Assembly: GCA_004151065.3 (NCBI GenBank)
Contig: NWUY0300099362.1
Coordinates: 1-20,781 of the forward strand
DNA length: 20,781 bases
Source: Larix sibirica
Taxonomy: Eukaryota; Streptophyta; Pinopsida; Pinales; Pinaceae
Reading direction: 5' to 3'
Every line of letters starts with the position of its first letter. Within the stretch, counting starts at the first letter, position 1. The notes beneath the pieces were generated by a model. The model searched no databases, was not told the origin of the DNA, and worked only from the letters and a program-made list of their open reading frames with translations. Position numbers and translations under genes: made by a program. Shown piece by piece: positions 689-20,496 of the stretch.

Positions 689-1435
689 TTGAATTGGTTT
701 AGGAAGGGCCCCACTATGTGGTCAGATGTTAATGGGGTGGATTGTCAACAATTGGAACCCGGTAAGCTCAAACCTTGTAAATGTGTCCATAAAAAGAATT
801 CTATGAAAAAACTTGCATTAGGAGAGGATGTTCTTATGAATGAAATGGTTTCCAAGGAAAAGCTTGCTCTATTAGGAAGGCTTGCAGGGAAGAATATGAG
901 CATGGCCATGCTCCAGTTTTGGGTATCCTTCAATTGGGAAGAGAAACTGGGTTGTCTCCCATGGATGTAAATTCTGGAAAAAGGGTGGCTAGGTTTTATC
1001 TTTAGGGCTCCGAAGGACATATTGTTTGTATTGGGGTGGACGTGGATGTGGGGCTCATCTCCCCTCAAAATTAAGTATTGGACCCCTCTTTTTGATGCAC
1101 AGAGTGAAAATAACTTTATTTAACCCATATGGGTGAAACTATCTAGACTCTCGACTGAATTTTGGTTGTTGGAAGTGTTCAGCAGTAACTCTTTAGGGTC
1201 TTTCTTATATGCAGATTTTAGCTTCCAGGAGATCGATATTATGAATTATACACGTATCTTAGTATATTTGGACCTGAGAGAGGATTTGTTTGTGGATTTG
1301 AATATTTATGTGGTTCATTCATCACATATTCATAGGCTAGACTACTATGGATTCCCCTTCCGACGTAAATGATTCCACAAGCATAGGAATTTGGTCTATG
1401 AATGCTCTCTTCCTTTCAGCAAAATGTGCCAACAA
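689..1435 (+). pseudogene. LINE ORF1 relic (DUF4283-type domain plus degenerate zinc knuckle)
   Basis: Plant L1-type LINEs encode an ORF1 nucleic-acid-binding protein with a DUF4283-like region followed by a CCHC zinc knuckle. One frame carries that series here: EKLALLGRLAGKNMSMA, GWLGFIFRAPKDILFVLGW, SPLKIKYWTPLFDAQ, PIWVKLSRLSTEFWLLEVF, then TRILVYLDLREDLF and LDYYGFPFRRK. These match the family order (basic helix, W-rich strands, WxPLF, PVWVKL-type and LDYEGxPFRC-type motifs). The zinc knuckle survives as FHKHRNLVYEC, with its first cysteines lost to K and a stop. Stops interrupt the frame at 968-970, 1121-1123 and 1370-1372. It lies on the strand opposite the large retroelement and has probably been split by it. 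The family match is from motif recall, not a search. Confidence 0.75.
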
Positions 1436-2092: not shown

Positions 2093-3028
2093 TGTTAATG
2101 CAAAGGAAACAGTCTAATACGAAGGTGTCAGAAAACCCTATGCAAGAGTTATCACATACCTTAGTTGTTTGGTGTGACTATTCCCGATGGGTTTTACAGC
2201 TTCATTAGCCACTAAGTGAGGTTATCTGTTTTAAAGGAAATTTTAATTGTTAATAAAATCATATTTTACTAGGTTAGACCTAATCTGTTTAAAATAAACT
2301 GAGGTGAAACTCAAACTGAGTTAGGTTAAATAGGAAAACCTGCCTAATAGTAAGAAGTTATTTTATTTGATCTATTTATTGGCATAAAATGTGATAGGAA
2401 TAATTAGAACAAATTCTTAACAATTCCAGGACAAATCCACTATTTTATAAATGAATGAAAACACCATTAAATTATAAAAGACAGTTGCAGATACAACATC
2501 AAATTAAAGAACTATGATATCTATTTAAAATGAAATGATTACAACTTCTAAACTATCAAAGTATGTCAATTAAAGATTAATTAAAGAGGTGATTACCATA
2601 AATAAAAGTATAGGAAATATCCAAACACTCTGCTCATGATAATCAAATAACTCAATGCAAAAATGCATTGTTAGCAACTTTAATCTCTGTAATAATAAGC
2701 ATTAATGAATAAGACTATTGTAAAGCATAATTGGAATATCAAGAAAACTCATGAAAGCTTAAGAAAACTCAAACTCTCATCAAGCCAAACAAATGTGCAG
2801 AACCACCTCCATCTTTCATTAACAGGTTTGTAAATCATTACAAAGCTTTCTTCCAAAAGACATGAACAATTCAACAGAGTCTAGTACAACAATCCACTAG
2901 AGGTTCCGACTGGATTTTTCCCCTTTTCCCCCTTTCTTCATTCCTATGATCAGTGGGAAATAAATATAACAAAATAGGATAATCGTAGAAAGAAAAAAAG
3001 GACAGATCACTTATATCTAAGAAAAATA
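2093..3028 (-). other. Noncoding distal part of block A (R/U5-like)
   Basis: No gene is seen. The sequence parallels 13915-14849 throughout, for example acaaattcttaacaattcc near 2409 and acaaattcttaacactttc near 14241, and taaatcattacaaagc near 2831 and taaatcattaaatgac near 14659. Low coding potential, conserved length and position just before gag in the other copy suggest the R and U5 part of an LTR. Confidence 0.5.
2915..2970 (-). promoter_or_regulatory. TATA-like site and polypurine tract, block A
   Basis: On the minus strand, a TATA-like stretch (GTTATATTTATTTCCC, at about 2955-2970) is followed after about 17 nt by a long purine run complementary to 2915-2939 (GAAGAAAGGGGGAAAAGGGG and on). 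Block B has the same pair at the equivalent place, just after the ORF stop. It could be the promoter of the gag-pol RNA. Alternatively, the purine run could be a plus-strand primer site (polypurine tract), which would put a short LTR start here. Function is inferred from position only. Confidence 0.35.
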
Positions 3029-5670
3029 CTAACTACCCTGACCAAGACTAGTAAGATAATCCCTCCACTTGGCATAGACTTCCCACATTTCGGTAACAAC
3101 AAGATAATTAGCATGTTCCAACTAGAGTTGTGCTTTACACAAGTAATACCTAACCTCTTTGCTTCAGAATCTAGACCAAGTGTCCAAAAATACTTGCAAG
3201 GTATATTTCAGGTGGATTAGGTAGAAATAAATGATATGAAGCCGAAAATATCAAGTTGAGTGGTGTCTCGGATCAATGCTAATTCGTCTCTTTGTTCATC
3301 CACCTCAGCAATCCTCAACTTCGCTGTCACTAAGTCTTCTAGCTCAGCAAAATCATGCATTCTAAGAGCTTCCATGTGGCCATCAGTCAACATCCATTAT
3401 CGTGCACAAATTTTCTACCCCTTTTCGATCATTTGGAACACTTCATCACAAGCGAGTTCCCATGATTTAACCGATATCTAATTTCTCATCAATTTGTTCG
3501 AATCCAAGTGGAGAACAGTATGAGGAACATTTTTTAGATGAGCTTGCCACTCATAAAGGTTCTCATAGGTTAAATTAGCCTTCTTCCTCTTCTCCACATG
3601 GTCTGCCAAAAGGTCTGACAAATGCTCAAAATAATTAAAGTCATCTTGTATTCCATTCAAACCTTGGAAGAACAGGGTCTGTGTTTGTTTCAAACTTTCA
3701 TTTGTGTCAATGGCTTCATCCTTGAATTCATGTATTGTCAACTTGAAAAAGAAATAGGAATCATAATGTTCCTTACATTGCTCCAATTGCAACTTCATAT
3801 CAACAAGATTAGAAGCTCGCTTGATCACTTTATTTTCCTCTATCCCCTTTTGTTGTAAGAGTTGTTGGATCTGGTCCTGTAGAGCATGCAACTGCAAATG
3901 GTGTTGAGTTTTAAGTTCCTCAACCTACTTGTTGAAATTCTTATCAGGAGAATCCTTTTATTTTTTAAGCACAACATTCTTAGCTTTCTCTTCATCCAAC
4001 AACTTAGTTAAAGTGGAGATTGAATCATAATTTTCCCCAGCAAAGGATCCCATATATGCAATAGTTTCCATAGCTTCCCTCTGTGGGTCATAGGTGGGAT
4101 GTCTACATGTGATTTGATTTGTAATTGGCCCAACCAGTACTTCTCCTTCTCTAGTTCTCTTAGAGCATTTTCTAAGCACAAATTTTTGCCTTCTGATGAA
4201 AAAATCATCTGCAAGCACAACCGCTGCATCTTCTCCAAAGTCAGTTGAATCTTCAATTGTGGAAACCAAAATTTTTACAGTGTTGGAAATAGGAAATGGA
4301 TGACTGATAGTAGTGACAACTTCCTCAGATAGGTTTTGGATAACTGATGGGATGGCTTGAGAAGAAGAGTTTAGAGGCAAATTTTCTATTAAAGGTTCAG
4401 TAGGATGAGGAGAAGGTGAATTGGCTTCAGAATATGGAAGGGTTCTATGAATATTATATTGAGCCACTAGAGTGCCTTGACGGAGAACTTGTGTTTCCTG
4501 TGAGACTAGAGAATCAGCTGGATAGTTTACCACATCCTTAGAAATTGGTTGAATGGATGGATTAGGAGATTGTAAGACTAAATATGAAGGATTGGTGTGA
4601 GGGGGTGAGTGTGGTAGTAAATTGTGAGTGTACTAAATAATAGAGTAATCAATAGAATGAATTCCTAATAAGTTAATGTCGGGTGAGGAATGGTGTATAG
4701 GACTAGTTGAAGTGCCATTAACAACTTGAGTATTTTCTAGAAAAGGCGTTTGTTGATGTTTTTGTAATACTGGAGTTGGATGAACTACTTCTAGGGGTTG
4801 CTCTTTCTCCAAATCAATAAAATTATCAACAAAGGATTGAGAAGGAGGATTATTAGCTAGTTTTTCCTTATCCCTGGTCTTTACAGACACTATAGGTACA
4901 GTAATATGGATAGATTCAGTACAATAAATAGATTTACCTTGAAGAGATTGAGTTTGCTTAATCAAGGCATTGCGAGTCTAGATAGGAGTAGAAGGATGAG
5001 AAGCTACTATGGGTTGCTTTACTTGTTGTTTGACCAAATTTGCATGCACCAAACTTAAGGGGATTTGGACTAACCACTATGTCTTTATTAGCTGCCTCCA
5101 TTGCCTCCTTATTAGATTTATGTTGTTCTTGAAAGATCCTATCCCTTTCCTCTATCACCTTAATATTCTGATGTTTTTGAGCTTCATGCACAAGGATTCT
5201 TTGAGCTGCATCGTCTATCCTTCTTAATACTTCTTCAAAATTGAGAACACCTTGATATAAAGAATCATCTGGTTGTTCTTCATGCTCATATGAGCTCTTT
5301 AAGTGTGGCTGCACAAAATGATCTTCTATGAAACATTTTGGGTCATGGATCCTTTTCATTGGAAACCCTTACTGCAACTTATTTAATTATTTTGCTAGGA
5401 TGCAGCCATGTGTTGCAATATGGATAACAAGTTGTCCCATGTGTAAAGGAAACTTTGGCCATGCTCTTCTTTTCAAGGAATGGCACTGGCCATGGACTCC
5501 ATCAAACACAGTTTGAAAATATACCTTTGCAAGGATCAATATGTCTAGAACAAACTTGGGTAACAAGTATACTGATTTGATGCCCCATATCCTAAGATAG
5601 GTGAAGAATTCTCCAACATACCAGTTACCCATAGGTGCTATCAAATAAATAGAATCCTCTGATTAAGTAC
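3029..5670 (-). pseudogene. Unknown-function retroelement ORF, 5'-truncated copy in block A
   Basis: This is a decayed copy of the ORF at 14850-18414. Matching segments in order are GNWYVGEFFTYLRIWGIKSV (near 5625), KRIHDPKCFIEDHF (near 5355), DDAAQRILVHEAQKHQN with a Glu/Lys/Arg-rich helix (5200-5060), a Ser/Pro/Thr-rich linker (4965-4350), ISTIEDSTDFGED-like acidic and RRQKFVLRKC-like basic stretches (4270-4150), a Gln/Leu/Lys-rich coiled coil with FKDEAIDTNESLKQTQTLFF (3897-3650), FEHLSDLLADH, YEWQAHLKNVPHTVLHL (to about 3490), and a conserved end KWRDYLTSLGQGS before the stop at 3029-3031. Frames change several times. The first roughly 300 codons and the start are missing. No membrane anchor typical of an envelope protein is visible. 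Function unknown. Confidence 0.7.
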
Positions 5671-5810
5671 AAAACCATGTTAATACCAAATTCAATTAAC
5701 ATTTAATGCAAAATAGCTAGTAAGAGATTGGCGGTTAAATAATGATTAACCATTAAGTGTATTTATTTTGACTAGTTTCTCGAGGCAGTTTGGCGCATGC
5801 AAAGGGAATA

Positions 5811-6270
5811 CCGACTTTTGATTGAAAAATATAAATGTTGAGGTGGGACTAACAAAATTCAGGATTCAGGATTCGAGAGTCAAGGAGAGAATTTATAACG
5901 TGGTAAACAACATGCTGACTCCTGACATCCAAATTCCATATGGGTGATTGATTTTGGAGTCGGTGCACCAAAAAGTAGTGAGAAATAAGCACATTACCGA
6001 CTTCTGAACTCCAAGATTCATAAAGCTAAAACATCTGCGTCGTGATGTCAGGGAACAAAATGTAAAGATAAATAATTGGCATGCCAACTCCCAACTTCTA
6101 ACTAAAATCACAAACGTAGGGATTAGAATGTCGGGATTGAACTTAAATAATAAATGATTTGCTGACTTCTGACTTCCGATAATTTTAATTTAGATAATAG
6201 AAATGTTGGGATCGGAAAGTCGGGAAGAGTAATATCGATGTATGAACATCCTGAATTCTGACTCCCAATT
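5811..6270 (-). repeat. Degenerate tandem array, about 86-bp period, block A
   Basis: Read on the plus strand, units begin with ccgactt/ctgacttctga-like words at about 5811, 5915, 5997, 6084, 6162 and 6251 (spacings 104, 82, 87, 78, 89). Each later contains a gtcggg-like word, such as tgtcgggat near 6130 and gatcggaaagtcggg near 6210. It is the counterpart of the array at 18880-19260 and lies upstream of the ORF on the minus strand, as a U3 enhancer array would. Confidence 0.6.
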
Positions 6271-6702
6271 TTATTTTATATTAGCTAAAAAAATAAATTA
6301 AGGTGTCGGAAATGTCAAAAGTAACTTAATCAAAGGCTTAATTTGTTTCATATTGACCCCAAAGTACTTCTAAAACAAAATAATGGATAAAATCAAGTAA
6401 AAATGGAAAAAAGAATTGTTTTTCAAAAATAAACTAAGGAATTTAATTCTAGCATGGGTTTCCCATCTTCTCCTAAAAAGATGGGATCATTGTGGCTACA
6501 ACAAGTGGTGGATCAATAGGAAGAAGCAGTTATCATTGTTTAGTTGGCAGCAATTCATTAGTTTTGTAGAGGCTATATAAAGTTTGGGATTACGGCCTGC
6601 TTGATCTATCCTCCGCGGGAAATAAATCCACTAGCTTTTTAGAAAGAATTTCCAATTTTCAAAGGAAGAATGTTCAATTACAAGAAATGGCTCAATTACA
6701 AG

Positions 6703-6776
6703 AATGGAAGAATAATATCAGAGAGTTACCTTTGCTAGGAATGGAAGAATAGTATCAGAGAGTTACCTTTGCTAGG
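6703..6776. repeat. 37-bp tandem duplication
   Basis: Two adjacent units, 6703-6739 and 6740-6776, begin aatggaagaat and end acctttgctagg. They differ at one base (aatatcag versus agtatcag), and a partial third copy (aatgga) follows. The near-identity means this duplication is much younger than the element around it. Confidence 0.9.
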
Positions 6777-6996
6777 AATGGAAAATATCGGAGAATAAAT
6801 GAACATGGTTCTAAGCCACCCTAAGATAGAATCACAATATCACACTCATTGCCACTGCTGCTAGCAGGAATCTATAACCTCGGCGAGGTTTCCTTTTGAC
6901 CCAATATTAGTCGCTTTGTTCCCATCTACTAGTTATAGATATACAATTTCCATACTCATACAATAAGTAATTCTAATAGTTAACCAAGGCACACTG

Positions 6997-7200
6997 CCCT
7001 GGCTTGGTAACCAGATAGCGGTAGAGTCATTCACAGAAGATTAGAGAAGTGAACAAGTTGGCTTGTGATAAGACCTCATGTCCCTTGCCCATGTGGGAAA
7101 TGGCCATTACCCTGGCTTGGGAACTAGATAACGGTAATGTCATTCCCTAAGAAACCATGAACATGATGGACTGGATCGTGATGAGACCTCCCATCCCTTA
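6997..7200. repeat. Diverged tandem repeat of about 113 bp
   Basis: ccctggcttggtaaccagat at 6997 recurs as ccctggcttgggaactagat at 7110. Both copies continue with a(a/g)cggta(a/g)tgtcatt-like words and end in gtgat(a/g)agacctc(a/c)(t/c). The second unit fades near 7200. Tandem repeats in the pol-to-LTR spacer are common in plant Ty3/gypsy elements. Confidence 0.75.
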
Positions 7201-7749
7201 ACTAACGCATAACTTTATCATTAAGAGCAGGATTGTATTTAGATGCTAACCTCTTAAGAGGTCACTCAGAGGTTGGGGAGGCATGACTAAACTCCTTAAG
7301 AGTAAGGGAAGACGTCAAGGATTTAAGTGTTAACAACTTGTCACCATATACTATCTTCTCTACAGTTGAGGGCATTCCTTTCAAATAAAATTCAATCTCA
7401 CCGAAACGTCTGACATCAAATTTTATTTTGTTCGGGATGAGGGAAAGTTCCTGTAAATTGATGATTAATAACTTGGTAAATATATCTCAGAAGCTAATAG
7501 AAAAATGGCTCACAAAGGAAGACCACAAAGTTGGTGGGTTGCCTAAAGATATTATGTAACACTTTTATGCCTACTTCTAACTTCTTAGAAACAAAAACAA
7601 ATGCTTGTCCAATGATAGTCCATTGTTGAGACCAATTTATTGAAAATAAAATATTGAAAACATGGTTGGAAAACAAGACACAATATATACAAACTTAGTA
7701 AAACCAAATAAAATACACGCCATGCTATATACAAGCCTAGTCAGAATGA

Positions 7750-8975
7750 CCAAGCAAAATATTTCTTTAGAAATTATGTGTTCACTGGATAGGTCTCCAA
7801 AGAGCCTTCTAGTGTCTACAATCAAAAAGTGCCAGGGCCTAATTTTTCAGAGATGGTGTATGGCCCTAGCCACATACATTGTAACTTGGTATGCACACCT
7901 TTATCCTCATGGGATTTGTCCCATTTTAGAACCAAGTTTCCTAATTGAAAGTATCGACTGGAAGAGGACTTCTCATCAAACCAATGTTTGACAAGTTATT
8001 GATGTTGGTAGAGCTGGTTTTTAGATTTCTGTCTCTCTTCTTCTAATTTGAGTAAGGCATTTATTATGTGTTCTAGAGCAGAGTAATCATCCTCCTGAAC
8101 ATATTGAGACAATTGATGTGAAGGTAAGGCCAAATTAGGAGGCAAGATAGTTTATTTCCCATAAACTAGACAAAAAGATGAGTTACCAATGGCAGCCTTA
8201 GGTGTCACCCTGTCTGCCCAAAGTGCATTGAAAAGTTGGGTGTGCCAATTTTTATGATGACTTGCTACAGTTTTCTTCAAAAAATTAATTAAGTTCTTAT
8301 CGGTAATATTTTTTTGAATATTTTATTTTGATACCTTTGTCTAACCCATACCGAGTAATATCTACATAAGATAAATACGACGCATTATCGAAGACCAAGG
8401 ACTTAAGAACACCAAACCTGGTTACAATATTACCTTCTAGGAATGAGATCACCTGGTTTGTGTTGACAACTCAGAGTGGAATTTCCTCCACCTGTCTAGT
8501 GAAGTAATTTGTAGCAGTAATAATGTATTTCTGTTGCAGCGAGGAAGTTGGATTAATTGGACCGATAATGTCCAAGACCCACTATTGGAAAGGAGTGTCC
8601 ATGATAACCAACTGAAGAGGAACATTGAGTTTCTTTATCCTACCAGAAGCCTTCTAGAATTCTTCGCATCTGTGAGCCAAAGCGAGGGCATATTTGAACA
8701 AGGTTGGCCAACAGTAACCAGCCCTAAGAATCTTATGAGTTGTGTTCTCTCCACCAAAATGTCCACCAACAGCACCTACATGGAATTCCATCAAAATTAT
8801 GTCAGCATCGTTTTCCTCCATACATCGAAGCAAAACTCGATCCTGGTTTCTTCTAAAGAGTACATTATCAATCCACTGAAAATGTGAAGCTTAAAATCTA
8901 GGAGCTCTTCTTTTTTTAGGTTCAAGGTTTTCAGGAGCATACCCATGTGTTAAGAAAAAATTAATATCATCTTAC
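7750..8975 (-). pseudogene. Integrase domain of the pol polyprotein (inactivated)
   Basis: Integrase joins element cDNA to host DNA. The HHCC zinc domain is readable as GGHFGGENTTHKILRAGYCW...HRCEEF: the first Cys codon is at 8666-8668, the second Cys has become Phe (8657-8659), and a stop follows (8654-8656). The first catalytic Asp is in WVLDIIGP (8570-8572). The second is in VFDNAS (8387-8389), about 61 residues later, as the family requires. The catalytic Glu segment is missing: GLDKGIKIKYSKKYY runs into a frame break near 8300-8320 and resumes at DKNLINFLKKTVA. A GPY/F module (WLGPYTI, near 7850-7876) and a final LETYPVN-like end close the domain. It follows the RT-RNase H in one frame, so it belonged to the same polyprotein. 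Confidence 0.85.
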
Positions 8976-9480
8976 CAGGAATACGGAATTGCAGGGATAA
9001 AATAGATATGATCATGATTAGATGCTTCTTCACTAGTCCATTCTACTTCAACATCGCATGTGTTATCTGAATGTGTCGATAGCTTACATGACCCTTGACC
9101 TCGAACAATATTTGCCAGCCTAACCTCCATATCATATTTTTGTGGTGAAGTCATCCAATGAGCTCGTTTCTCCTTGAGTTCCTTCTAAATAAATACATTC
9201 TGAATGGCCGAATACTGAACTATAAATTTGGTTCGGGACTTGAGGATTTAAGGTCTGAAGTGTTTAACTGCTTTATACACTGTGTAGGATTTTTTATCAA
9301 CCTCTAGATAATTAATCTCAACTCCCTTCAAGGTGGAACTCATGAAGGATATTGGAATTTCATCGCCTTCAGGATTTCATTCTGTTAGGACTGCAGCATA
9401 TGAGATGCGAGAAGCATATGTATACAAGATAAAATCTTTTGAGAAATCAGGGGACATTAAGGCAAGTGATTATGTGATTG
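8976..9480 (-). pseudogene. RT-linked RNase H and connector (inactivated)
   Basis: This is the Ty3/gypsy RNase H-like domain that follows RT and degrades the RNA of the RNA:DNA hybrid. The readable order is LMSPDFSKDFILYTYAS, then YAAVLTE, EIPISFMSSTLKGVEINY, VDKKSYTVYKAVKHFRP, RAHWMTSPQKYDMEV, then NIVRGQGSCKLSTHSDN. These match the FxLxTDAS, EKEAYAVV-like and HWxxxLxxYDF-like landmarks. The usual Asp after LYT is changed. Stops fall after AIT, after LTE, after HFRP and within the FI-KELKEKR stretch. It is read in the same frame as the end of RT and the start of integrase. Confidence 0.8.
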
Positions 9481-10330
9481 CTTCCCTAATGCTACAAAAA
9501 TATTCTCTATGTGCATCATTCCATTTGAATCCAACATACTTTTTAATCATGTCTTGTAAGGGTTTAACAATCTGGTCAAAACTAGGAACAAACTGCCTTA
9601 CAAAATTGATTTTCCCTAAAAAAGATTGCATAGACTTTTTCGAGTTAGGGAAATTAATTTTGGCAATGTCTTGTTCCCTTTTAGGGTCGATCACCATTCC
9701 ATGCTTAGGAACGACAAACCCAAGCAACCTACCCTCTGTTATAGTGAAAAAATGACATTTTTGGGTTTAATGAAATACCATACTTTCTGCATCGTTCAAG
9801 AACCCGTCTCAAGTGCAAAAGATGGTCATTCATGCTCTTCGAAAAGATAGCGACATCATACAAATATACCACAACAAAATTATGAATAAAACCGTATAAG
9901 GCTATGTCCATCGCTCTCTAGAATGTGGCACCTTCGTTTATTAATCCAAAGGGAATCTTTCTATATGTGAAAGTACCCCATGGATTTCTAAAGGCAGGTT
10001 TTAATTGATCTAGGTGAGAAAGTAAAACCTGTTTATAACCAGAAAATCCATCTAACAAAGAGAACATCTCAAACCCAGATACTTTTTGTAAAATTTGTTT
10101 CATTGAGGGTATTGGTTAATTATCCTTTTCAGAGGCTTTATTCAAATTTCTAAAATCATCACACAGATGAATGTCCCTATTTTTCTTCCGAATTGGTACT
10201 AGGTTAGCCACCACTTGGGTATGTCTTACAGGAAAAATAATCCTAATAGACAGGAGTTTATCAAGCTCCTTCTTTACTAATGGTTCCAAACTAGGGTGCA
10301 TTTTCCTAAGTTTTTACTGATAAGGCTTAA
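9470..10330 (-). pseudogene. Reverse transcriptase domain (inactivated)
   Basis: The fingers and palm motifs are recognisable in order: KKELDKLLSIRIIFPV, NLVPIRKKNRDIHLC with DDFRNLNKASEKDN, FSLLDGFSGY with the motif A Asp at 10050-10052, FRNPWGTFTYRKIPFGL, then VVVYLYDVAIFSK. The last is the YxDD catalytic box with its first Asp changed to Tyr (codon 9858-9860); the second Asp is kept (9855-9857). The thumb reads LGFVVPKHGMVIDPKR, FLGKINFVRQFVPSF and KYVGFKWNDAHREYF. Stops fall between the motif blocks. A one-base slip in an A-run (plus strand 9747-9752) shifts the frame between GISLNPKMSFF and LLGFVV. This is clearly Ty3/gypsy type. Confidence 0.9.
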
Positions 10331-10829
10331 CCTAGGGTTTCATTAGGATATTATGTTGCTTTATGTTTGTGTCAAACATCTTTAAATCATCATAGGTCCA
10401 TGAACACACATTTTCATACTCTTTGAATAGTTTAATAAAATAAAATCTCTTAGTAGGGGTACATTCAGTTCCAAGGTTGATTGAGGATTATGCTCAGTTC
10501 CTAGGTTTATGATTTGATAGTTCATACAATAACTATTGGTCTTACAACTGGTAACTTTTTAAAATTTATCCTATAAGTCATAGAATTTTTCAAGCCTAAC
10601 AATTGATTTAGGCACTAGAGTAGTAGGTGTTTGTGGGTCGGATGTGGACCAAAAAGGATTTATCATGTTCATATTCATTAATGGAAATATCCTTGAAAGT
10701 ATCCTGAGAAATGAGAAAATCCAATATTTGTTGATCATCATTAAAAACTTTCCAATTAGTGATGTTGTCAGGGAATGAGGGTCTATACATTAATTCAATT
10801 AAAAGGCATCAGGTGTAAAACCCTCAACA
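10331..10829 (-). pseudogene. Conserved pol linker between the extra RNase H and RT (degenerate)
   Basis: The readable pieces are LMLVEGFTPDAF, then MYRPSFPDNITNWKVFNDDQ, then, after a stop-rich part, INLGTE, FIKLFKEYENVCSWTYDDLK and the run-up to RT. The 'xxVNLGTE... LxxFKDVFAWSYDD' pattern is the standard lead-in to RT in plant Ty3/gypsy polyproteins. The pieces sit in different frames, so indels have occurred. It has no enzymatic role I can name. Confidence 0.65.
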
Positions 10830-11361
10830 AGCATTAACTTGGGTGTAATATTAGTGAGCAAGTTAGCATCATTCTTTTGTGATTGGGGCACAAAATTTAT
10901 ATTGAAGGCTTGAAAATGATTAATAAATTCCATACTTCCCTCTGATAATTTTTTAAGTGAGTAGAAATACAATTAATAGAGTTCCTCACTTGTCTAACGA
11001 TTATATTAGAGTCACCATAAACTTTAATTACCTGTAACTTTAAGTCAATTGCTTTCCTTAGACCTTGTATCAGTGCCTCATACTCAACTACATTGTTTGT
11101 ACATTCAAACTCTAATCTAAAAGCTATCATGATCTTGTTACCAGTTGGATCTATTAGAACACAACTGGTTCCATCCCCTTCCTTGGATCTTGAGTCATCA
11201 AAAAATAGATTCCAACAAGATTTATCTAACCTGAAATTAATATTTACATTATATATATTATGAAGAATGGTTTGAGTTGATTCTAACCAAGAAAAATTCA
11301 TAATCTCAAATTGGTTTCCTGATTTAGCATAGGGGAAAACATCTATAGGCAAGTTACACAA
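10830..11361 (-). pseudogene. Extra RNase H domain located upstream of RT (archaeal-like type)
   Basis: The domain starts near CWNLFFDDSRSKEG and continues CVLIDPTGNKIMIAFRLEF, NNVVEYEALIQGLRKAI, KVYGDSNIIVRQVRNS and THLKNYQREVWNLL. After a frameshift it ends FVPQSQKNDANLL. The four acidic catalytic positions are all present: Asp55 and Glu93 and Asp117 counted from the ATG at 11361, then Asp in KNDANLL (10868-10870). The expected Gly after Asp55 is Asp. The WxLFFDGS...NNxAEYEAL...VxGDSxxV signature is that of the additional RNase H of Tat-group elements, distinct from the RT-linked one. Its position between protease and RT is notable, because in the Tat/Ogre elements I know it lies after the RT-linked RNase H. 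Confidence 0.8.
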
Positions 11362-11855
11362 AATGTATCCATGGTATAATTTCTTGTGTGGGTATTGAGA
11401 AACAAAGTAGGCTCACTTGGTTCATAAATGTCAGTAACTGTTTGTTTGAGATAAGGTTCTCTATTGATTTTAAGTTTGTTTGGATTGCCATTATATGGAA
11501 ACCACAAGTGTGACCAATCGATAGCGAAGTAGCCATTGATATTTTTAGACCAATCTAGAATTAGTCGCATCCCATAGGCCTCTGGGAAATTTTCCACCAC
11601 AATATCGATAGTCTAATAAATCCTAGGGTTGGAGGGGAGTTGGATCAATACATTTTTTAGTTCTACTTCTACTTTCACCCTGTATCTATCCAACTACACA
11701 ATTTGTGTAGGTGAAAGTTCCATGTTTTCTTTATGTTTCTTACAGACTGAAAAAGGCATAACATTTGAAGACGCACCAGAATATATCATACAATTATGAA
11801 CATTCCTGTTAAAGATTGCAAATGATAATAGAAAAGGAGGTGTTCGAATTTTATT
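11343..11855 (-). pseudogene. Aspartic protease (retropepsin) domain, active-site Asp lost
   Basis: The frame reads RTPPFLLSFAIFNRNVHNC then MIYSGASSNVMPFSV. The retropepsin active site is normally D-S/T-G; here Asp has become Tyr (codon 11781-11783), a single-base change from GAT to TAT. Downstream are LSPTQIV, a stop, VKVEVELKNVLIQL, another stop, then VENFPEAYGMRLILDWSK, NGYFAIDWSHLWFPYNG and a tail of about 50 residues. The domain sits between gag and the extra RNase H, as expected for gag-pro-pol order. The protein would have cleaved the polyprotein; this copy cannot. Confidence 0.8.
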
Positions 11856-12419
11856 TCCAGTTGATGAGGAAGTATGAGACTATTAATCATTTCCCTGAAC
11901 ATGGGTTTCTAGATTATTGTTTTCGATAGTCTTACTTTTCTTTGGAATTAAACCATTAAGGAACTTTTATTGAATTAGTGGGATCTTCAGTGGCTCAAAA
12001 TATGAAATATTAACACTAGAATTTTTTAGATCTTCCATTGGATCATATTCTAGGTCAGGTATGTTTAATTCCTTTTGAGTATCGACCCTAGTGCTTGAGG
12101 AAAGATTCTTGTTGGAATTGCAAGTAGATGGATGATCCTGATTCAATTGCCACTTCCCACAAGTGTTATAGGGGTGTTGTATGGAATATACGGTTTTAGG
12201 GTCGTCTTCTTCATAATTCCTTGGAAATTATGAAAACTGATTAATAGTAGTTAATGATCTTGCTCTTCAGGTAATTTCTCATCATATTCAAGATTTTCAG
12301 TAAATATTGTCTCTTTATGTCAGAGGGAGGTTGAGGAATTCCTAGTAGGGATTTAAGGACAAAGACTATATTGTCAATATTCATCCCCTCTGAAGGAGGT
12401 GTCTGTTGATTTTGGGGAG
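11856..12419 (-). other. Stop-rich gag-protease junction
   Basis: About 560 bp joins gag to protease. A short readable piece, PPQNQQTPPSEGMNIDN, lies near its gag end; the rest is broken by stops in all minus-strand frames I read. It is expected to encode the gag C-terminal linker or nucleocapsid part. I could not find a CCHC zinc knuckle in it. Confidence 0.5.
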
Positions 12420-13856
12420 GCTAATAAGGTATCATGTAGGGATTCTTGAAAAACCCCCGATTGGATGGACATTCATTTACATTCTTCTTCAAATATACTA
12501 CTTAATTAGAAACCTTTTGTATGAATTTCTGGAGGATTTCCAGATCTAAGGATGATTGGTACTTCTTAGGAACAATGGGCTTAGGAGGAGACTCTGGTTT
12601 CTTTTAAGAAGTTATATGTTGATCATTATCAGTGTTGGGATTTCCTTTAAGGCTCATCATGTCTTTATCAATCAAGATAGCCTCGCTAAAGGCTTCTCGA
12701 AGAGTGGCTTTATGAGACCTTTTAACCCACATGGCCATGGAAATAGGAAGAGACTTAGCATAATATGCTATGATGAGGTTTTTAGCTGGAATAGACTCAG
12801 CTGGGATTTTTTCTTTAAATTAAGGAATCTCTATTTGAAATATTTAATGTGTTCCTTACTTCCCATTTTCATGGTAGAAAGTTCCATAACTAAGTCTTCA
12901 AGTGTTTTATCATCACCAAATTTCTCAAGAAAGATTTTTTCAAATTGATCCCAAGATTGAATTATCTGAGGTTGTTGCACAAAGTACCATGTTGAGGCCC
13001 TACCCTCAAAAGTATAAGGGAAAATCCTACACATGACATATCCGTGTTCGATATTGTGCAATCAGATAACCAAAATAATTTTTTTAATGTGGTCATTGGT
13101 TGGCTATTTATTGTATGGATTGAACTTAAGTAAGAACTTCTTAGGGTTCTTCGGCGAAGGGTGTTATGGGATAGGGATCACCATGGCATCTTGATCTAGC
13201 CATGGTTTGTTCTGATTTTTAGCCATACATTGGTGATATTCTTCTGTTCCAGTCCCGTCTGATGAACTATCAGTATGATGATTTGAAGATTTTCCCTCAG
13301 AATTATCCAAACGAGGAGAATCGGGTGGGGATGGTGGTTGGCCTAACCCGATTGACTCAAGGATTAATATCAAGTGATTGGGCGATGAAGTTTCGTTGAA
13401 CTGATAATCTGATTGAAATAAAGGGTTACTCCGCTTGCTAGTAGAGTTATGATCTGCTTGACTTGTCAGAATGTTATGCAATGAATGATTAGGGCCATTT
13501 AACCATGGTAATTTCTCTGCTGATGAACCAATTGCAAGATCCTCATTGTTTTCAATAGAATGGTTAAGGTGACAAGCTATCTTCTATTGGAGTTATTGGC
13601 TTCTTACTAGTCTAGTCTGAGATATTTCCAATGCACATTGAGAATTCTCAATATGGTTTCGAAGCTCATAATATTCGGTTAAAGATGTAAGAATCACGGT
13701 ATTTCCTATAGGCTGAGTTGAATGTTGAAGCAGGGTGGAAATGGATTCAGATTATGGAGTAGCGACAGTAGTGGATGTGACTAGTGGACTGGAGCGACCA
13801 CGAGTTGTGATTGGGGAATGAGTGGGAGCATATTTCTTATGATTCCATTTAGCCAT
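12420..13856 (-). pseudogene. Gag polyprotein (degenerate)
   Basis: The likely start is the ATG at 13856-13854 (MAKWNHKKYAPTHS), 58 bp inside block B. The N-terminal third is Ser/Pro/Asn-rich. The capsid core (retrotransposon gag domain) reads GYVMCRIFPYTFEGRASTWY, then QPQIIQSWDQFEKIFLEKFG and EDLVMELSTMKMGSKEHI (13040-12840). It continues in another frame as EKIPAESIPAKNLIIAYYAK, VKRSHKATLREAFSEAI and KDMMSLKGNP. These match the family pattern FPxTLxGxAxxWY, W..F...F...F and the E.I..YF..F stretch. Stops interrupt the N-terminal part, and at least one frameshift follows KEHIKYFK. Gag would assemble the particle that holds the RNA. Confidence 0.85.
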
Positions 13857-13914
13857 TAATTTGCAAGTGGCCCTCTGTCTAGCACCATTTGTTGATTCCC
13901 ACAACTGGTCCAAT
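13857..13914 (-). other. Short gag leader; candidate primer-binding region
   Basis: Only 58 bp separate block B from the gag ATG. On the minus strand they contain two words starting TGG, as a tRNA primer site would: TGGACCAGTTGTGGGAATC just inside the edge and TGGTGCTAGACAGAGGGCC about 30 nt on. Neither matches a plant tRNA 3' end that I can name, so the primer site is not established. Confidence 0.3.
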
Positions 13915-14849
13915 CGTCAATGCAAAGGAAATTTTCCGATCTGAAGGTGTAAGACAACCCTACGCAAGATTTATCCTAGTCCTCAGTCGTTTAGTGTAAC
14001 CATTCCTAACAGATATAAGGCCTTCGTTGGAAACGAGTGGGGTTGTTCTCCTTCAAAAGGAGATTTTAAGGTTAATGAAAACCTAATTCAGCTATGTCAA
14101 TTCTAATCTGGTCAAAAGAAACTAAGATAAATATTAAAATTAAATTAGGGTAAATAGGGAAACCGGCCTGACAGTAAAATTCTCTCTTACTTGATCTCTT
14201 AATTAAAATAAGATGTACTGAAAATAATCAAAACAAATTCTTAACACTTTCAGGACAAATTAAATCATCATAACTAAATGAAAACACCATCAAATTATGG
14301 AACCAATTTACAAGTGCATAATCAAATATGAGGAACTTCGCTAACTAATTAAAATGTAGTAATTTAAATTCTAGAATGCTAAAATATATCAATTATAGAT
14401 CGATTACAGAGGTAAGCATCATAAACAAAGATGTTAAAAATATCCAAGTATTGCTCATAATATTCCGAACCAATTAATGCATACATACACTAATACCAAT
14501 TTCACCCTTTGCAACAATGATCATTAATAACAATGAGTAATGTGTTAGAAAAACAACAATTTGAATATAAGGAAAACTCATGAAAGTCAAGAAAACTCAA
14601 ACTTGAATTAGGCCGAGAACCATGTGTAGAACCATCTCCATCTTTCATTAACAAGTTTGTAAATCATTAAATGACTTGCTCCAAAATACATGGAAAGTTC
14701 AACAAAGTCTAGTACAATAAAATTCCACCAGAGGTTCAGCTAGAATCCCCCCCCCTCTACCTCTGGTTGATTCAATTATAAATACAACAAAATGGATAAC
14801 ATAGATCCAACAAATTATCTAGAAGATCTCCTAAGCATGGGGAATTTCT
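13915..14849 (-). other. Noncoding distal part of block B (R/U5-like)
   Basis: It is colinear with 2093-3028 and virtually the same length (935 versus 936 bp). No gene is seen. It ends beside the gag leader, the place of U5 in a minus-strand element. Confidence 0.5.
14747..14787 (-). promoter_or_regulatory. TATA-like site and purine tract, block B
   Basis: On the minus strand, TGTATTTATAATTG (14787-14774) is followed by AACCAGAGGTAGAGGGGG, with an uninterrupted run of nine G (complement of 14747-14755). The pair lies just downstream of the ORF stop, as in block A. A gag-pol promoter with the RNA start near here would make the following approximately 0.8 kb R plus U5. The tract could instead mark a polypurine primer site. 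Confidence 0.35.
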
Positions 14850-17800
14850 AACTATCCTAATTGGGATTTGTAATGTAGTCCTTCCATTTCAAATAAGCAT
14901 CCCACATATCATAAATATCAGGCTAGCCGATACGTTCTAATTGGAGCTGGGATTTACATAGGTAGGATCTGACCTCTTTACTCCTAATTTTAGACCAATT
15001 ACTTAGTAAATTTTCCAAAGTAATTTTCAAATGGACAGGATATTAAATGAACGTCCTCAATGTAAAAACATCAAATTGAGAAACATTTTGGATAAGTTCG
15101 ACTGACTGATCTCTTTTTTCTTCCACCTCAACCATTCTTAACTTATCTGGTACCAAGTCTGCCATCTCAACAAACATGGGAATGCTGAGCATATCCATAA
15201 ATTTATCAGTCAACATCCATTTCCTCATGAAAATGTTTGTCCATTTTCAATCATGCTCGAAACCGCATCGCATATTGCAAATCCTCGAGACTTGATTGAT
15301 ATGCGAATTCTCATGATTTGAAGTGCATTAAGGTGGGGAATAGATTGAGGAGCATTTTTCAGGTGAGTCTTCCACTCACACAATTGTTCATATGCTGAGT
15401 GGGCCTTCTTTTTCTTATCATTGTGCTCTAATAGAATATCAGACAGATGTTCAAATGCATTGTACTCATCTTGTACTTCCCTTAACCCATGCAAAAAAAA
15501 TGATTGAGCCTGTTTGAGATTCTCATTAGGAAAGACTGCTTCATCCTTGAATTCTTGGGAAGTGAGATTAAAGAAATCAGAAGAATGTCCTTGGTATTTA
15601 AAGTGTTCAATTTTTTGCTTGATGTATTCAAGTTGTGTAGCTTGCTCAGATATCTTGCTATCTGGAACATCTTTCTGCTCCGTGGCTTTATGGAGTTGAT
15701 CCTGCAAGCTCTGCATTTCTTGTTGATGTTGTGTTCTCAACTCTTCCATCTTCTTGTGAAGTACTTCTTGTAGAGAGTCATTATCCAATTGAAAGGTAGC
15801 ATATTCTTCTTCTTTTTCTTCTTCAATTATATTGTCTAAGGTGGAAACAAAGTCATAATTGGTTGCTACAAAGGCCCCATAGCAGCTACAACTTCAACAG
15901 CTTCCCTCCTGGGGTCAATAGTGTCCTACTTCCAAATAAATTGATTTTCTATAGGGCCAACAATGATGTTCCCTTCTTTTCCTCTTTTAGTGCCTTTCCT
16001 GAGTACAACCTTTCTTTCTAAAGCAATAATCACCTAAAACTACTACAACATTTTCACCAAAATATGTAGAGTCTTCAGCTGTAGAGACTAGCAATCCAAC
16101 AGATCTAGTTATTGGTATAGGTTGACTCATGTAAGTTAATGGTAATTGAGGAGGGCCTTGGGGTGTTTCTGATAAATTTTGAGCAAAATTAGTTGTAGGA
16201 AGGACCCCTACTTGAGACTCTATAAGCTGGGTGGAAGAAAAAACACACTTCAGACTAAGGGAGAGTACTAGGAGCACTATCCTCAACTCTCTATTGAGAT
16301 GTCTAGGCTAATTGTAGAGGTAAAGTATTTGTTGAAGAGCTCACTCCCTTATATGTTAACAATTGAGTAGTATAAGTGGCCTGTAATAAAGGGAATTATG
16401 GGAGATTGGTATGAGGAGGTGAAGAAGGCAATGAATTGTGGACTAAATGAGAGACAGGGTTATCCACAAGGGGGAGTTGTGAAAAATTGTGATTGAGAGA
16501 AGGTTGATTATTTTTGTAAGGTAAGTTGTCATTAAAAATAGATTTATCATCCTAAGGTGGTGATTGAGTAGGCTCTTGGATCACTTGAGTAGGATTGATA
16601 ACCTCTGTTGGTTGCTCCTTTTCCAAGTCAATGAAACTAACATTTGGCTATGAAGAAATGACATATGGGACTATTTTTGAATGTGGCCTAGCTTTAGCTG
16701 TGATAGTATATGGCATGGTAGGCATAGAAATAGAAACAACAGTCTAAATACACTGATTAGACCTACCTTAGAGAAATCCTGCCTGTTGGGTCAGTTCATT
16801 CAAATGTTGGATAGGGTTGAGAGGTTGGATGGATGGCATAGGCTACTTCCCCTATTGCTTGTCCAATTTCTTCTCTGTTGTAGATTGAGGTTGACTTGCA
16901 CTGACTTCCAATTCCTTATTTGATGCCTCCATGGCTTCCTTAGCAGCTTGCTCTTGCCGCTAGAATATCATGTTTCTTTCATCCATTACCTTGATATTTT
17001 GTTTCTTTTGGGGTTCATGAATGAGATTCTAATATCAGGGTCAGTAACCCTACTCAATACGTCTTCAAAACTTTAAGCACCCTAATAAAGGAAATCATCA
17101 GGTTCTGTCTCATGAGCATATGAGCTTCTTAACTGGACCTGAATGAAATGATCAACCAAAAAACCTTTTGGGTCATGCATTCTTTTGAACCCGACCCCTA
17201 GTTTTAGATCATTTATCCCTTTGGATAACATATGGGCATGGATAGCATTCCGAATCACTAAATTATATACATACAAAGGAAAATTTGGCCATGCTCCCCT
17301 CTCCTGAGAATGACATAGGCTATATACTCCATTGGTGACTGTTTGATAGGCCACTTTTGCAATAACCAATCTATTGGTAATAAAACTTGGCAATAAATGC
17401 ACTGACCTGCTACACCATATCTTGAAGTAAGTGAAAAAATCACCAACATAATAGTTATCCTTCGTTGATACCAATGATATAGCTTCTTCATAATTTTGGG
17501 GGGCATCCTTCTTAAATATGATCAAGTAAACAACACTAAAAAAATGTCACATATTTCATAAAGGTGAGGCTTGTAATTATCTTCCCACAAAATAGAACAA
17601 TAAATATGCACATGAGGGTTCTATGGAGTCCAATGCTAGTTCATTGAAGGGAATGCAAACGAAGCACAAAGAATATCTACCAAGTATGCAGATAGAAAGA
17701 ACCTGGGTTTCCAGGTGGTTGGAACTTTTAATGCCTGAGCAATTGCATCTTTGACTATGATGGAGAAAATTTGGGCCTAGTTTAAAACTTGCCTTGTAGT

Positions 17801-18414
17801 TGCTACATGATGACGAGCTAAAGGAGTCCATTCTAGCCTGAAATATGAAAAAATATCAGCACCATAAAACTACAGAGCATGGCGATAAGGAGCTTATAAG
17901 GTTCCCTGAGCAGAAAAATTGGGTATTGTCTGTTAGGTTGAAGTACAAATGTGTCAGGGTCAACCATCAAGTTTTTTACAAGTATATCTACCTCGTACTT
18001 CTGCTTGAAGGACCTTAGGAATTCTTGTGTCAAAATCTGTTGCAGAGTCTTGATGGCGTATATCCTTGCAAATGTATCCAGTTTGAAGGTGGCATATGGA
18101 GTTTGGTTAGAATCCCTGAATGTGCTCGTGGGAATGTGTGCATGATCCATCATCCACTTCACCAAGTTAGTGAATGGCATGATAGATGGCCGGGAAGCAA
18201 TGACGTGAAGAATGGACTTGCTTATGTTTTGGTATAACATGGCCTCTTCACAAAATTATGAGAATTAATCATTGTCGAAAATACTGTGAATCCTAGCCCA
18301 GTCCAGGAATAGGGTGTCACAAAATTGGGCATCAGTGTCTTAGTAAATGCCTAGGTTAGGGTCTTTTACCTTTAATTCTTCTAGCACAACTTTGGATATG
18401 GTTTTGCGAGCCAT
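14850..18414 (-). pseudogene. Unknown-function retroelement ORF inside block B (about 1,190 codons, decayed)
   Basis: The start is ATG at 18414-18412 in a good context (CCACCATGG), reading MARKTISKVVLEELKVKD. In order: a helical N-terminal part (18414-17833; CDTLFLDWARIHSIF, FTNLVKWMMDHAHIP, FLRSFKQKYEVDILV); a hydrophobic/aromatic part (17830-17530; FPSMNWHW-like); DNYYVGDFFTYFKIW, SVHLLPSF, KRMHDPKGFLVDHF and LRSSYAHETEPDDF (17460-17085); a charged helix; a Ser/Pro/Gln-rich linker (about 16900-16200); an acidic patch with STAEDSTYFGEN (near 16070); a Gln/Glu/Lys coiled coil (15790-15590; QHQQEMQSLQDQLHKATEQK); FKDEAVFPNENLKQAQSFF, FEHLSDILLEH, CEWKTHLKNAPQSIPHLNA; and a C-terminus KWMLTDKFMDML to DYITNPN. 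An early stop lies at 14857-14859; the stop shared with block A is at 14850. At least three in-frame stops lie in the first 60 codons, with several frameshifts. No known domain, signal peptide or clear membrane anchor is seen. Confidence 0.7.
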
Positions 18415-18431
18415 GGTGGTTAGGAGTAGCT

Positions 18432-18506
18432 CTACAAAAAGAAGATAGTGATATAAACAAATTTATATAAAAAACTGAGATAAAAGCAAAACATAATGGA
18501 GAATAC
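18432..18506 (-). other. Candidate 75-nt intron in the 5' leader of the block B ORF
   Basis: On the minus strand the sequence reads TTCTTCAG|GTATTCTCC ... TTCTTTTTGTAG|AGCTACTCC, followed 13 nt later by the ATG. It has GT-AG ends, a CAG exon edge and a strongly U-rich body, as in plant introns. At 75 nt it is near the lower size limit for plants. It would give the ORF its own spliced transcript. The equivalent part of block A is deleted, so there is no comparative support. Confidence 0.45.
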
Positions 18507-18879
18507 CTGAAGAAAATATCAACTAATCCTGTAGAAGTAAAATGAAAAAGCTTAGAAGGCACAGTTCTAGTGGTTCTACGATTCCAACTTCAGCTCTGAG
18601 GTGGCGAAGTAATTTAAAAATGTGATAAAAACATATTTAATTACCGCTAAATTCATTTATTACCAGCCATAAATGAGTTTATTGATGATTGGTAGTTAGA
18701 CCATCATCAACCATTAATGTTAGTGGACTTAAATGAATTTTCGGACCAATTTTTAACTCACGTATGAAAATAGATCAGTCTTGATGTTAGAAGGATGATT
18801 CCGAAGTAGATTCGCCGAGGTTGGAGGATAGTCGCAAGTCAGGATTCAGAGTGACATTTGAACGGTAAACATGTGGGAT
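18507..18879 (-). other. Upstream leader and candidate promoter region of the block B ORF
   Basis: This is noncoding sequence between the repeat array and the candidate intron. Nothing firm can be assigned. An AT-rich TTAAATATG word on the minus strand near 18630-18640 could serve as a TATA element for the ORF transcript, but this is weak. The stretch around 18660-18740 resembles 5690-5770 in block A, close to the edge of the block A deletion. Confidence 0.3.
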
Positions 18880-19260
18880 GCCAACTTCTGAAATTACAAG
18901 GTTATTAAAATTTAAAACATCGACGTCGGGACATCGGGAACAAGTTTGAAATAATGAAGGGAGTGCCGACTTCTTAGGTTGCAAAGTTCCTGGGTTGAAA
19001 ACGTCGGCATCGGAACGTCGGGGTGGAATGTCGTAGCACAAATAAATTACTGATTTCCAAAGTAAATAGGGATCGCGATGTCGACACAGGGACATCGACA
19101 GGTAATTTATGAAGTGAAAATAACTTGTTGAATCCCAAAGTTTGAAGTTTATAGATTTTAAAATGTTGGGATCATAACTTCTGCATTGAGACGTCAGGAT
19201 CGACATGTCGACAACTTAACTATGAAAATATAAAATATCGATTCCTGAGGTCGATGATTT
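18880..19260 (-). repeat. Degenerate tandem array, about 83-bp period, rich in ACGT/GTCGG motifs
   Basis: On the plus strand, units begin with gccaacttctg (18880), tgccgacttct (18964), ttactgatttcc (19047) and ttgttgaatccc (about 19126), a spacing of 81-84 bp. Each unit carries paired GTCGG/ACGTC words: cgacgtcgggacatcggg at 18921, aacgtcggcatcggaacgtc near 19000, gatgtcgacacagggacatc near 19077, and gagacgtcaggatcgacatg near 19188. ACGT cores are the binding core of plant bZIP factors. CpG-rich words are unusual in this AT-rich surround. The array lies in the U3-like part, upstream of the ORF, and is shared with block A. Confidence 0.65.
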
Positions 19261-19484
19261 TCTCATAAGCAAGATAATTAAAACATTGGAAACATAAAAA
19301 ATGGCCAGAAGTTGAAAGGTAATTAATTTAAATTGCCTCAGAGTACTTATCATAAGGAATACTCAAAGAATTGTCTAAAAATACTAAATAACAATACTTG
19401 GTGAAAAGAAATTGATAGAATACAAAATTTGAAAGGGGATCCCATATTTTTAATAAAATGGTGGGATCTGTTGTGGCTACAACA

Positions 19485-20272: not shown

Positions 20273-20314
20273 ACGAATCCACAAGATTCGCCCCCTCTCC
20301 AATTCCATTGAAGT

Positions 20315-20496
20315 CTTAGAGGCCACTATTTCCTCCACAAAGCAATTCATCCCTTCTTGCAGTCAAACCCTCGGCCCTCCTCTTCCTCATGAGGCCAAAG
20401 CAAGGCTTAGAGGCCACAATTTCCTCCATAAAGCAATTCATCCCTTCTCAAAGTCTAACTCCTCGACCCTCCTCTTCCTCATGAGGTCAAAGCAAA
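20315..20496. repeat. 91-bp tandem duplication
   Basis: Unit 1 (20315-20405) and unit 2 (20406-20496) both begin cttagaggccac and share tttcctcca(c/t)aaagcaa, ttcatcccttct and ccctcctcttcctcatgagg. Differences are scattered substitutions, so the duplication is moderately old. It lies just downstream of the decayed frame and shows no coding domain. Confidence 0.9.

Follow-up and report, generated by a model that had tools for sequence, protein, structure and literature searches.

Can the long terminal repeats (LTRs) of a plant retrotransposon harbour a protein-coding gene of their own? This question is raised by a stretch of 20,781 nucleotides from Larix sibirica (contig NWUY0300099362.1 of assembly GCA_004151065.3; hereafter 'the window'), where two colinear direct repeats on the minus strand, which we term block A and block B, enclose the gag and pol genes of a Ty3/gypsy element and share a decayed open reading frame (ORF). 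A first-pass annotation, made from the letters of the window alone, had proposed that these blocks are very long LTRs. We consider the architecture to be real and unusual, and it most likely represents a gene-carrying LTR of an element of the Tat clade at a decayed, hybrid locus. In the reading that we favour and hold to be probable, the long blocks are LTRs with a gene in the unique 3′ region (U3), and they stem from two diverged lineages whose sequences now occupy one locus.

Two long repeat blocks and their ends

Block B (13890..19484, minus strand; 5,595 bp) begins with TGTTGTAGCCACAAC, ends with AATCAACA and precedes gag on the minus strand. Its homology edges, its TGTTG/CAACA termini and an adjoining primer-like site mark it as the likely 5′ LTR. 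Block A (2093..6503, minus strand; 4,411 bp), which reads TGTTGTAGCCACAAT...CATTAACA, follows pol and a spacer of approximately 1.2 kb, and its alignment with block B suggests that it is the LTR of a related but diverged lineage. When the window was compared with itself by BLASTN, matches were found between 2094-3732 and 13916-15557 (67.5% identity, E 1e-128) and between 5082-5652 and 16913-17482 (65.2% identity, E 2e-29), and the identity is 67% across the final 1.6 kb of the blocks. A global alignment extends this homology, in weaker form, as far as both outer edges. Block A lacks approximately 1.15 kb that is present in block B (~17,490-18,640), comprising the ORF leader and about 300 codons, and if block B ends at 13890, block A also lacks 25 bp near its 3′ end. 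The outer flanks of the blocks have no sequence in common in the BLASTN comparison at E 1e-3.

The edges of the two blocks are sharp. Both start with TGTTGTAGCCACAA, and all 14 bases on the inner side of the 5′ edge agree, versus 5 of 30 on the outer side. For the 3′ edge, placed at 2093/13915, the corresponding values are 21 of 30 and 8 of 30. Because matches give way to mismatches so abruptly at both edges, the blocks represent one unit with the same two ends in four different contexts. A 5-bp terminal inverted repeat is evident in block B (TGTTG...CAACA), and block A reads TGTTG...TAACA, such that each has the TG...CA ends by which LTRs are recognized. The better 3′ end of block B is the CAACA at 13890, located 25 bp past 13915, where the border reads ...AATCAACA, then AA and then TGGTGCTAGACAGAGGG.

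Beginning 2 bp after this CAACA is a primer-binding-site-like sequence (13868..13887, minus strand) that is complementary to the 3′ end of tRNA-Asn. It is the best of the 688 TGG sites on both strands, and a proportion of only 5e-5 of random TGG sites score equally well. Seven tRNAs were tried in this test, and the assignment to tRNA-Asn is provisional. The site falls within the 0-5 bp after a 5′ LTR where a primer-binding site is to be expected.

The first-pass annotation had described colinear direct repeats that flank gag-pol, which is borne out by the BLASTN and global alignments, and it had recommended a self-alignment of the window to fix the block edges. Its count of 58 bp between its edge at 13915 and the gag ATG at 13856 is correct. 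Its outer ends of the TGTT...AACA type can be sharpened to the pairs given above, with the end of block B shifted to 13890 and the start of block A placed at 6503.

The ORF carried by the blocks

The decayed ORF of block B (14848..18414, minus strand) extends from an ATG at 18414 to a TAG at 14848 and nominally comprises 1,189 codons, with the stop counted and indels ignored. A remnant of the same ORF in block A (3029..5659, minus strand) lacks approximately the first 300 codons, and hence has no start. The ORF was compared between the blocks in eight frame-consistent segments (692 aligned codons), leaving out overlapping segments in other frames and one segment of 36 codons. Mismatches at codon positions 1, 2 and 3 amount to 37, 26 and 57%, respectively. 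The proportion of differences is 0.76 at synonymous sites (pS) and 0.30 at nonsynonymous sites (pN) overall, pS exceeds pN in all eight segments, and 58 of 88 fourfold sites differ. In the omitted 36-codon segment (4092/15920), 12 of the 22 new mismatches are at third positions. When the same DNA is read in shifted frames, the pS/pN values become 0.40/0.40 and 0.33/0.43. Likewise, mismatches in the adjoining non-coding 3′ part are distributed by position as 61, 63 and 69 in the four best segments, or as 77, 75 and 94 when all listed segments are summed. The combination of saturated synonymous change and constrained amino acids, which is absent from the shifted frames and the non-coding DNA, implies that the ORF was a selected gene. 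Judging from this codon pattern, it evolved under purifying selection as a protein gene, and a chance ORF would not be expected to yield such a pattern.

Several Pfam families (HopJ, AVR-Pik_HID, DUF1690, Sec10_N, DUF3584, RNA_pol_Rpc82, TreT_GT1 and SKI) matched pieces of the ORF with E values of 0.004-0.09, all below the cut-offs, and we dismissed these matches as due to chance, with some reflecting coiled coil. A search of the PDB with one ORF piece returned no match. Structure predictions for two pieces gave a mean predicted local distance difference test score (pLDDT) of 36.5 and 38.9.

Upstream of the ORF, block B contains diverged repeats (18874..19213, minus strand) that form short families with spacings of 77, 78, 84, 85 and 85 bp, and others of 32 to 458 bp; Tandem Repeats Finder at score 30 reported no repeats in block B. 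A matching array in block A (5904..6266, minus strand) consists of one family with five copies, spaced by 82, 87, 78 and 89 bp. Between the repeats and the start codon of block B is a predicted leader intron region (18431..18528, minus strand), with acceptor-like sites at 18528, 18431 and 18474. These sites take ranks 2, 3 and 5 of 263 in the window, with ties, in a rough consensus scan that also gave equal ranks to sites elsewhere (20181, 6369 and 17837). The same region includes TATATAAA at 18469, 55 bp upstream of the ATG at 18414, whose context is ACCACCATGG.

Downstream of the ORF, block B carries a TATA-like motif (TATTTATA at 14784), a purine tract of 13 nt (14758-14746) and a conserved stretch (14563..14832, minus strand for the whole). 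The same stretch in block A (2741..3013, minus strand, approximate limits) includes TATATTTATT, which was read by eye and did not match in the pattern scan, and a purine tract of 25 nt (2939-2915). Outside gaps, the two blocks are 82-86% identical from 14832 to 14563, which makes this their best conserved non-coding part, and 65-78% identical from there to the block end. Overall, the 3′ 0.8 kb differs at 26% of aligned sites (209 of 805).

These features match the earlier description of a repeat array upstream of the ORF and a TATA/purine region downstream of it. The claim that each block holds the same ORF of about 1,190 codons in full length is true of block B, whereas block A has lost some 300 of them.

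We consider 14563..14832 likely to be the junction of U3 with the repeated region (R), together with R itself. If the TATA-like motif is the promoter and the best conserved stretch is R, both of which come after the ORF, then the ORF resides in U3. This placement, argued from position, is one component of the reading that we deem probable as a whole, and the start site, splice sites and poly(A) site of the element are likewise predictions. U3 would begin at TGTTG, include the repeat array and the ORF, and end at the TATA-like motif, R would be the most conserved stretch directly thereafter, and the unique 5′ region (U5) would occupy the last 0.6-0.7 kb. The ORF might be expressed from its own U3 promoter (TATATAAA) or through splicing to an acceptor located right before the ATG. 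Since each LTR receives a copy of U3, a complete element of this kind would contain two copies of the gene, and even a solo LTR would retain the whole gene together with its promoter.

Divergence of the blocks and competing explanations

Several observations weigh against the proposal of long LTRs that harbour a gene in U3. A tRNA-Asp-like site is located 2 bp after the alternative end at 13915 (rank 1 of 318 over 24 nt, and rank 2 over 18 nt), and with this site at the older edge the 3′ end of block B is certain only to approximately 25 bp (13890 or 13915). No 5-bp target duplication is present at the outer edges (AAACG versus CCGAA, 0 of 5), and no polypurine tract precedes the start of block A, where 12-nt stretches across the last 60 nucleotides contain at most nine purines. 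The strongest G-rich polypurine tract, the 25-nt tract of block A, is inside the block, approximately where an LTR of 0.8 kb would begin. In addition, the final 0.8 kb of block A has its own TATAAAA (2449) and AATAAA (2380 and 2367), and block B has neither motif there. The conserved stretch is gap-rich between 14832 and 14739, with gaps in 35 of 120 columns. Finally, two pieces of the ORF have no relatives in the protein database (the first yielded four candidates, none significant, and the second yielded no candidate), and no confirmed locus among viral contigs, where no second locus was found. Given that an RNase H domain of the internal region described below has 109 relatives in the protein database, this resource covers kin of the element, yet none was detected for the two ORF pieces.

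Some of these points would be accommodated if the real LTR measured only about 0.8 kb (~2093-2891 in block A and ~13890-14720 in block B). The ORF would then be internal, in an env-like position between pol and the 3′ LTR, the purine tract would be the polypurine tract, and the upstream part of block B would be the 3′ end of another element arranged in tandem. This arrangement is in keeping with the purine tracts directly before the better conserved 0.8 kb, with the resulting step in identity, and with the lack of a purine tract adjoining the long block. Moreover, block A has TGTTG at 2891, and its TATAAAA and AATAAA motifs could serve as promoter and poly(A) signal, while sense ORFs at this position, after pol and ahead of the 3′ LTR, are reported to be well known in plants (PMC7264820). 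However, the purine tracts are followed by TCC or TTC rather than TG, with TGTTG coming 23 bp later (TATTG in block B), and the last 0.8 kb of block B has neither TATAWAW nor AATAAA. The edge of the long block is abrupt and starts with TGTTG, and nothing pol-like was found beyond block B: none of the eight minus-strand open pieces (at least 30 amino acids) upstream of it has a Pfam match, which favours the preferred reading, and two plus-strand pieces there likewise have none. Furthermore, an LTR shared by diverged elements should be least A-like at its left end, but this end is the most similar. We regard the 0.8-kb LTR as unlikely, but as the main rival of the reading that we prefer.

If the long blocks are LTRs, a second issue is whether they could be the pair of a single insertion. 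The LTRs of one insertion start out identical. In-frame stops number 10 (block A) and 8 (block B) per 692 codons, which in a simulation corresponds to neutral decay of approximately 0.10-0.12 per copy. Synonymous saturation is far above this level, and therefore the U3 lineages of the two blocks must have split long before the decay. Since identical LTRs could not have reached pS 0.76 and pN 0.30 in this way, blocks A and B cannot have formed the LTR pair of a single insertion, and the absent target duplication also kept us from filing them as such a pair. A single insertion with LTRs that have merely aged was rejected on the basis of this codon-structured, saturated divergence. We also set aside the birth of one insertion from two templates, which would have received different U3 regions through intermolecular plus-strand transfer, as this route should have left a target duplication and a polypurine tract.

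A more elaborate version of the single insertion holds that both LTR genes were domesticated, diverged in place under selection by the host and decayed only recently. This would produce codon-structured divergence within one LTR pair, but in pol, which such selection would not have protected, in-frame stops are about as dense as in the ORFs (~7 across ~606 codons by visual count), and pol still matches Pfam. In addition, the difference between the blocks in the non-coding 3′ part is only 26%, and no target duplication is present. We find this scenario barely credible.

The preferred reading, in which LTRs of two diverged lineages came together, instead attributes the present arrangement to recombination between insertions or to two neighbouring insertions, either of which could have placed blocks A and B around one gag-pol. 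Alternatively, block A could be a separate LTR, whether solo or from another element, that lies beyond a truncated 3′ end of gag-pol, in which case LTRs with U3 genes would be present that never flanked one element. The absence of a polypurine tract before block A, the great distance between the U3 lineages and the lack of an outer duplication are all compatible with this idea. Nevertheless, the flanks of block A itself match at only 2 of 5 positions (CCACT versus CCGAA), and block A, block B and pol have the same orientation and similar decay, so we judge it improbable. The hybrid sequence of the locus might also suggest a chimeric assembly that joined two elements of a large, repeat-rich genome. 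Such an artefact would not explain a selected gene inside a block with TGTTG/CAACA ends, and we consider it highly improbable, even though nothing that was tested speaks strongly against it.

The interpretation of the blocks as LTRs is supported by their sharp edges, the 5-bp inverted repeat, the primer-like site, the adjoining Ty3/gypsy gag-pol and the once-selected gene within the repeat. What does not survive is a simple LTR pair of one insertion, given the saturation, the missing target duplication and the lack of a polypurine tract before block A. Where U3 is reassorted against R-U5 by strand transfer at R, the U3 regions are expected to be distant and the R-U5 regions closer. We read U3 and R-U5 at this locus as having different histories of the kind that this process would produce, for which constraint on R-U5 is an alternative. 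More tentatively, and as a possibility that we would not yet favour, a plant Ty3/gypsy lineage may maintain a large selected gene in U3, such that a solo LTR is a gene cassette equipped with a promoter, and the U3 genes of different lineages may reassort at R during strand transfer, independently of gag-pol.

The Tat-type internal region and related systems

The region between the blocks is decayed throughout but can be followed on the minus strand from gag (12834..13856; ATG 13856), which includes a Retrotrans_gag match (PF03732, E 6e-9) in 12834-13061. An open piece with the protease-like motif SGASSNVMP (11697..11879) has no Pfam match, and the same motif is found before the RNase H of one database protein (P0069). 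The next feature is an extra archaeal-type RNase H (aRH; 10900..11412) located upstream of the reverse transcriptase (RT). It matches PF13456 (RVT_3; E 3e-12) and, in a separate PDB search, the RNase H structures 3u3g, 4h8k and 4e19 (E 0.0003-0.0025). The RT is in pieces (9732..10313), of which 9732-9917 matches PF00078 with E 2e-6 (28.0 bits, just under the cut-off of 29.6), 9921-10115 matches with E 0.02 and 10119-10313 has no Pfam match. A remnant of the native RNase H (RH; 9251..9469) matches PF17917 (E 8e-6, above the cut-off) and PF17919 (E 3e-6, below the cut-off) in 9251-9376. The usual form of its motif is TDAS, and here it reads TYAS, with Y at one catalytic position. The integrase is also in pieces (8300..8890), with a zinc domain match (PF17921, E 5e-6) in 8657-8890 and no Pfam match for 8300-8470, as is true of several other pol pieces.

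The order gag, aRH, RT, RH and integrase is that of Ty3/gypsy elements, with integrase after RT-RH. By this domain arrangement, the DNA between the blocks belongs to a Ty3/gypsy element of the Tat type, in which an extra RNase H precedes the RT. RNase H before the RT is reported to characterize TatI and TatII, which come from clubmosses and gymnosperms (Neumann 2019, PMC6317226). Biryukov and Ustyantsev (2023, PMC10508981) designate the same arrangement structure #2. They report it from three clubmosses and every gymnosperm that they studied, and in gymnosperms other than two Gnetophyta species it is the most abundant. From this distribution alone, a gymnosperm host would be likely. Among 116 candidates in the protein database, 109 match the aRH piece at E <= 1e-3 with identities of 36-72%. 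They derive from the sources ena, jgi, lgn and ncbi, and a single row names an organism, Humulus lupulus. Twelve of the 109 relatives come from contigs longer than 10 kb, in which less decayed copies of the element and its LTR might be present. Among viral contigs, the aRH piece and the aRH alignment gave no confirmed locus and a conserved 30-base LTR pattern was unmatched, and genome contigs yielded no match for this pattern or for the aRH alignment.

The spacer between pol and block A (6504..7700, minus strand), which has no polypurine tract adjoining block A, contains 37-bp tandem repeats at 6702-6787 (2.4 copies, 96% matches) that are far less diverged than block A is from block B. It also holds direct repeats of 36 bp each at 6997-7032 and 7110-7145 (86% identical). 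Beyond block B, a 91-bp tandem duplication is present at 20311-20495 (89% identical). In the 2-kb flank at the other end, which has several plus-strand open stretches, 1124-1369 (plus strand) has a weak match to DUF4283 (E 0.004, below the cut-off), and this flank may be another decayed retroelement. No tRNA genes were found in the window, and no Rfam family matched at its gathering score.

The locus thus has the same order of gag, protease-like piece, aRH, RT, native RH and integrase as the Tat clade elements with aRH upstream of the RT. Very large LTRs (up to ~5 kb) and repeat arrays have been published for the non-chromoviruses (PMC6317226). The accessible parts of the Tat clade papers (Biryukov and Ustyantsev 2023; Neumann 2019) describe no gene inside an LTR, whereas the ORF at this locus lies within the block. 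Additional or extra ORFs (aORF/eORF) in the sense orientation are known from Ogre, Athila, SIRE and Retand, where they likewise accompany gag-pol and have no known domain. The plant aORFs covered by the available text of a review lie in the internal region (PMC7264820), and a text search of that review found no mention of ORFs in LTRs; if the blocks are LTRs, the present ORF would instead be part of the terminal repeat. In the titles and abstract openings listed, we found no plant LTR with its own protein gene, although a published case is possible, because subscription papers, figures and supplements were mostly outside the scope of this survey.

A further analogy is the sag gene of mouse mammary tumour virus (MMTV), a sense ORF in U3 that is thus present in both LTRs, as proposed for the larch element. 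This viral ORF is reported to be driven in some cases by a U3 promoter, P2 (PMC9412291). The likeness is one of architecture. The ORF described here nominally has 1,189 codons, belongs to a plant Ty3/gypsy element and has been assigned to U3 by inference.

LTR ages reported for conifers can be very old; in Cryptomeria japonica, the median for SIRE elements is 143 million years (PMC11539532). The Larix sibirica locus cautions against treating LTR divergence as an insertion clock in every case, as here it arose largely before the decay. If our reading is correct, this element would be a rare case of a gene inside the control ends of a retrotransposon and, in plants, an independent parallel to the MMTV gene in U3. 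Solo LTRs, which are usually counted as regulatory scars, would then be gene copies, and the lineage would have possessed a selected accessory protein encoded outside gag-pol.

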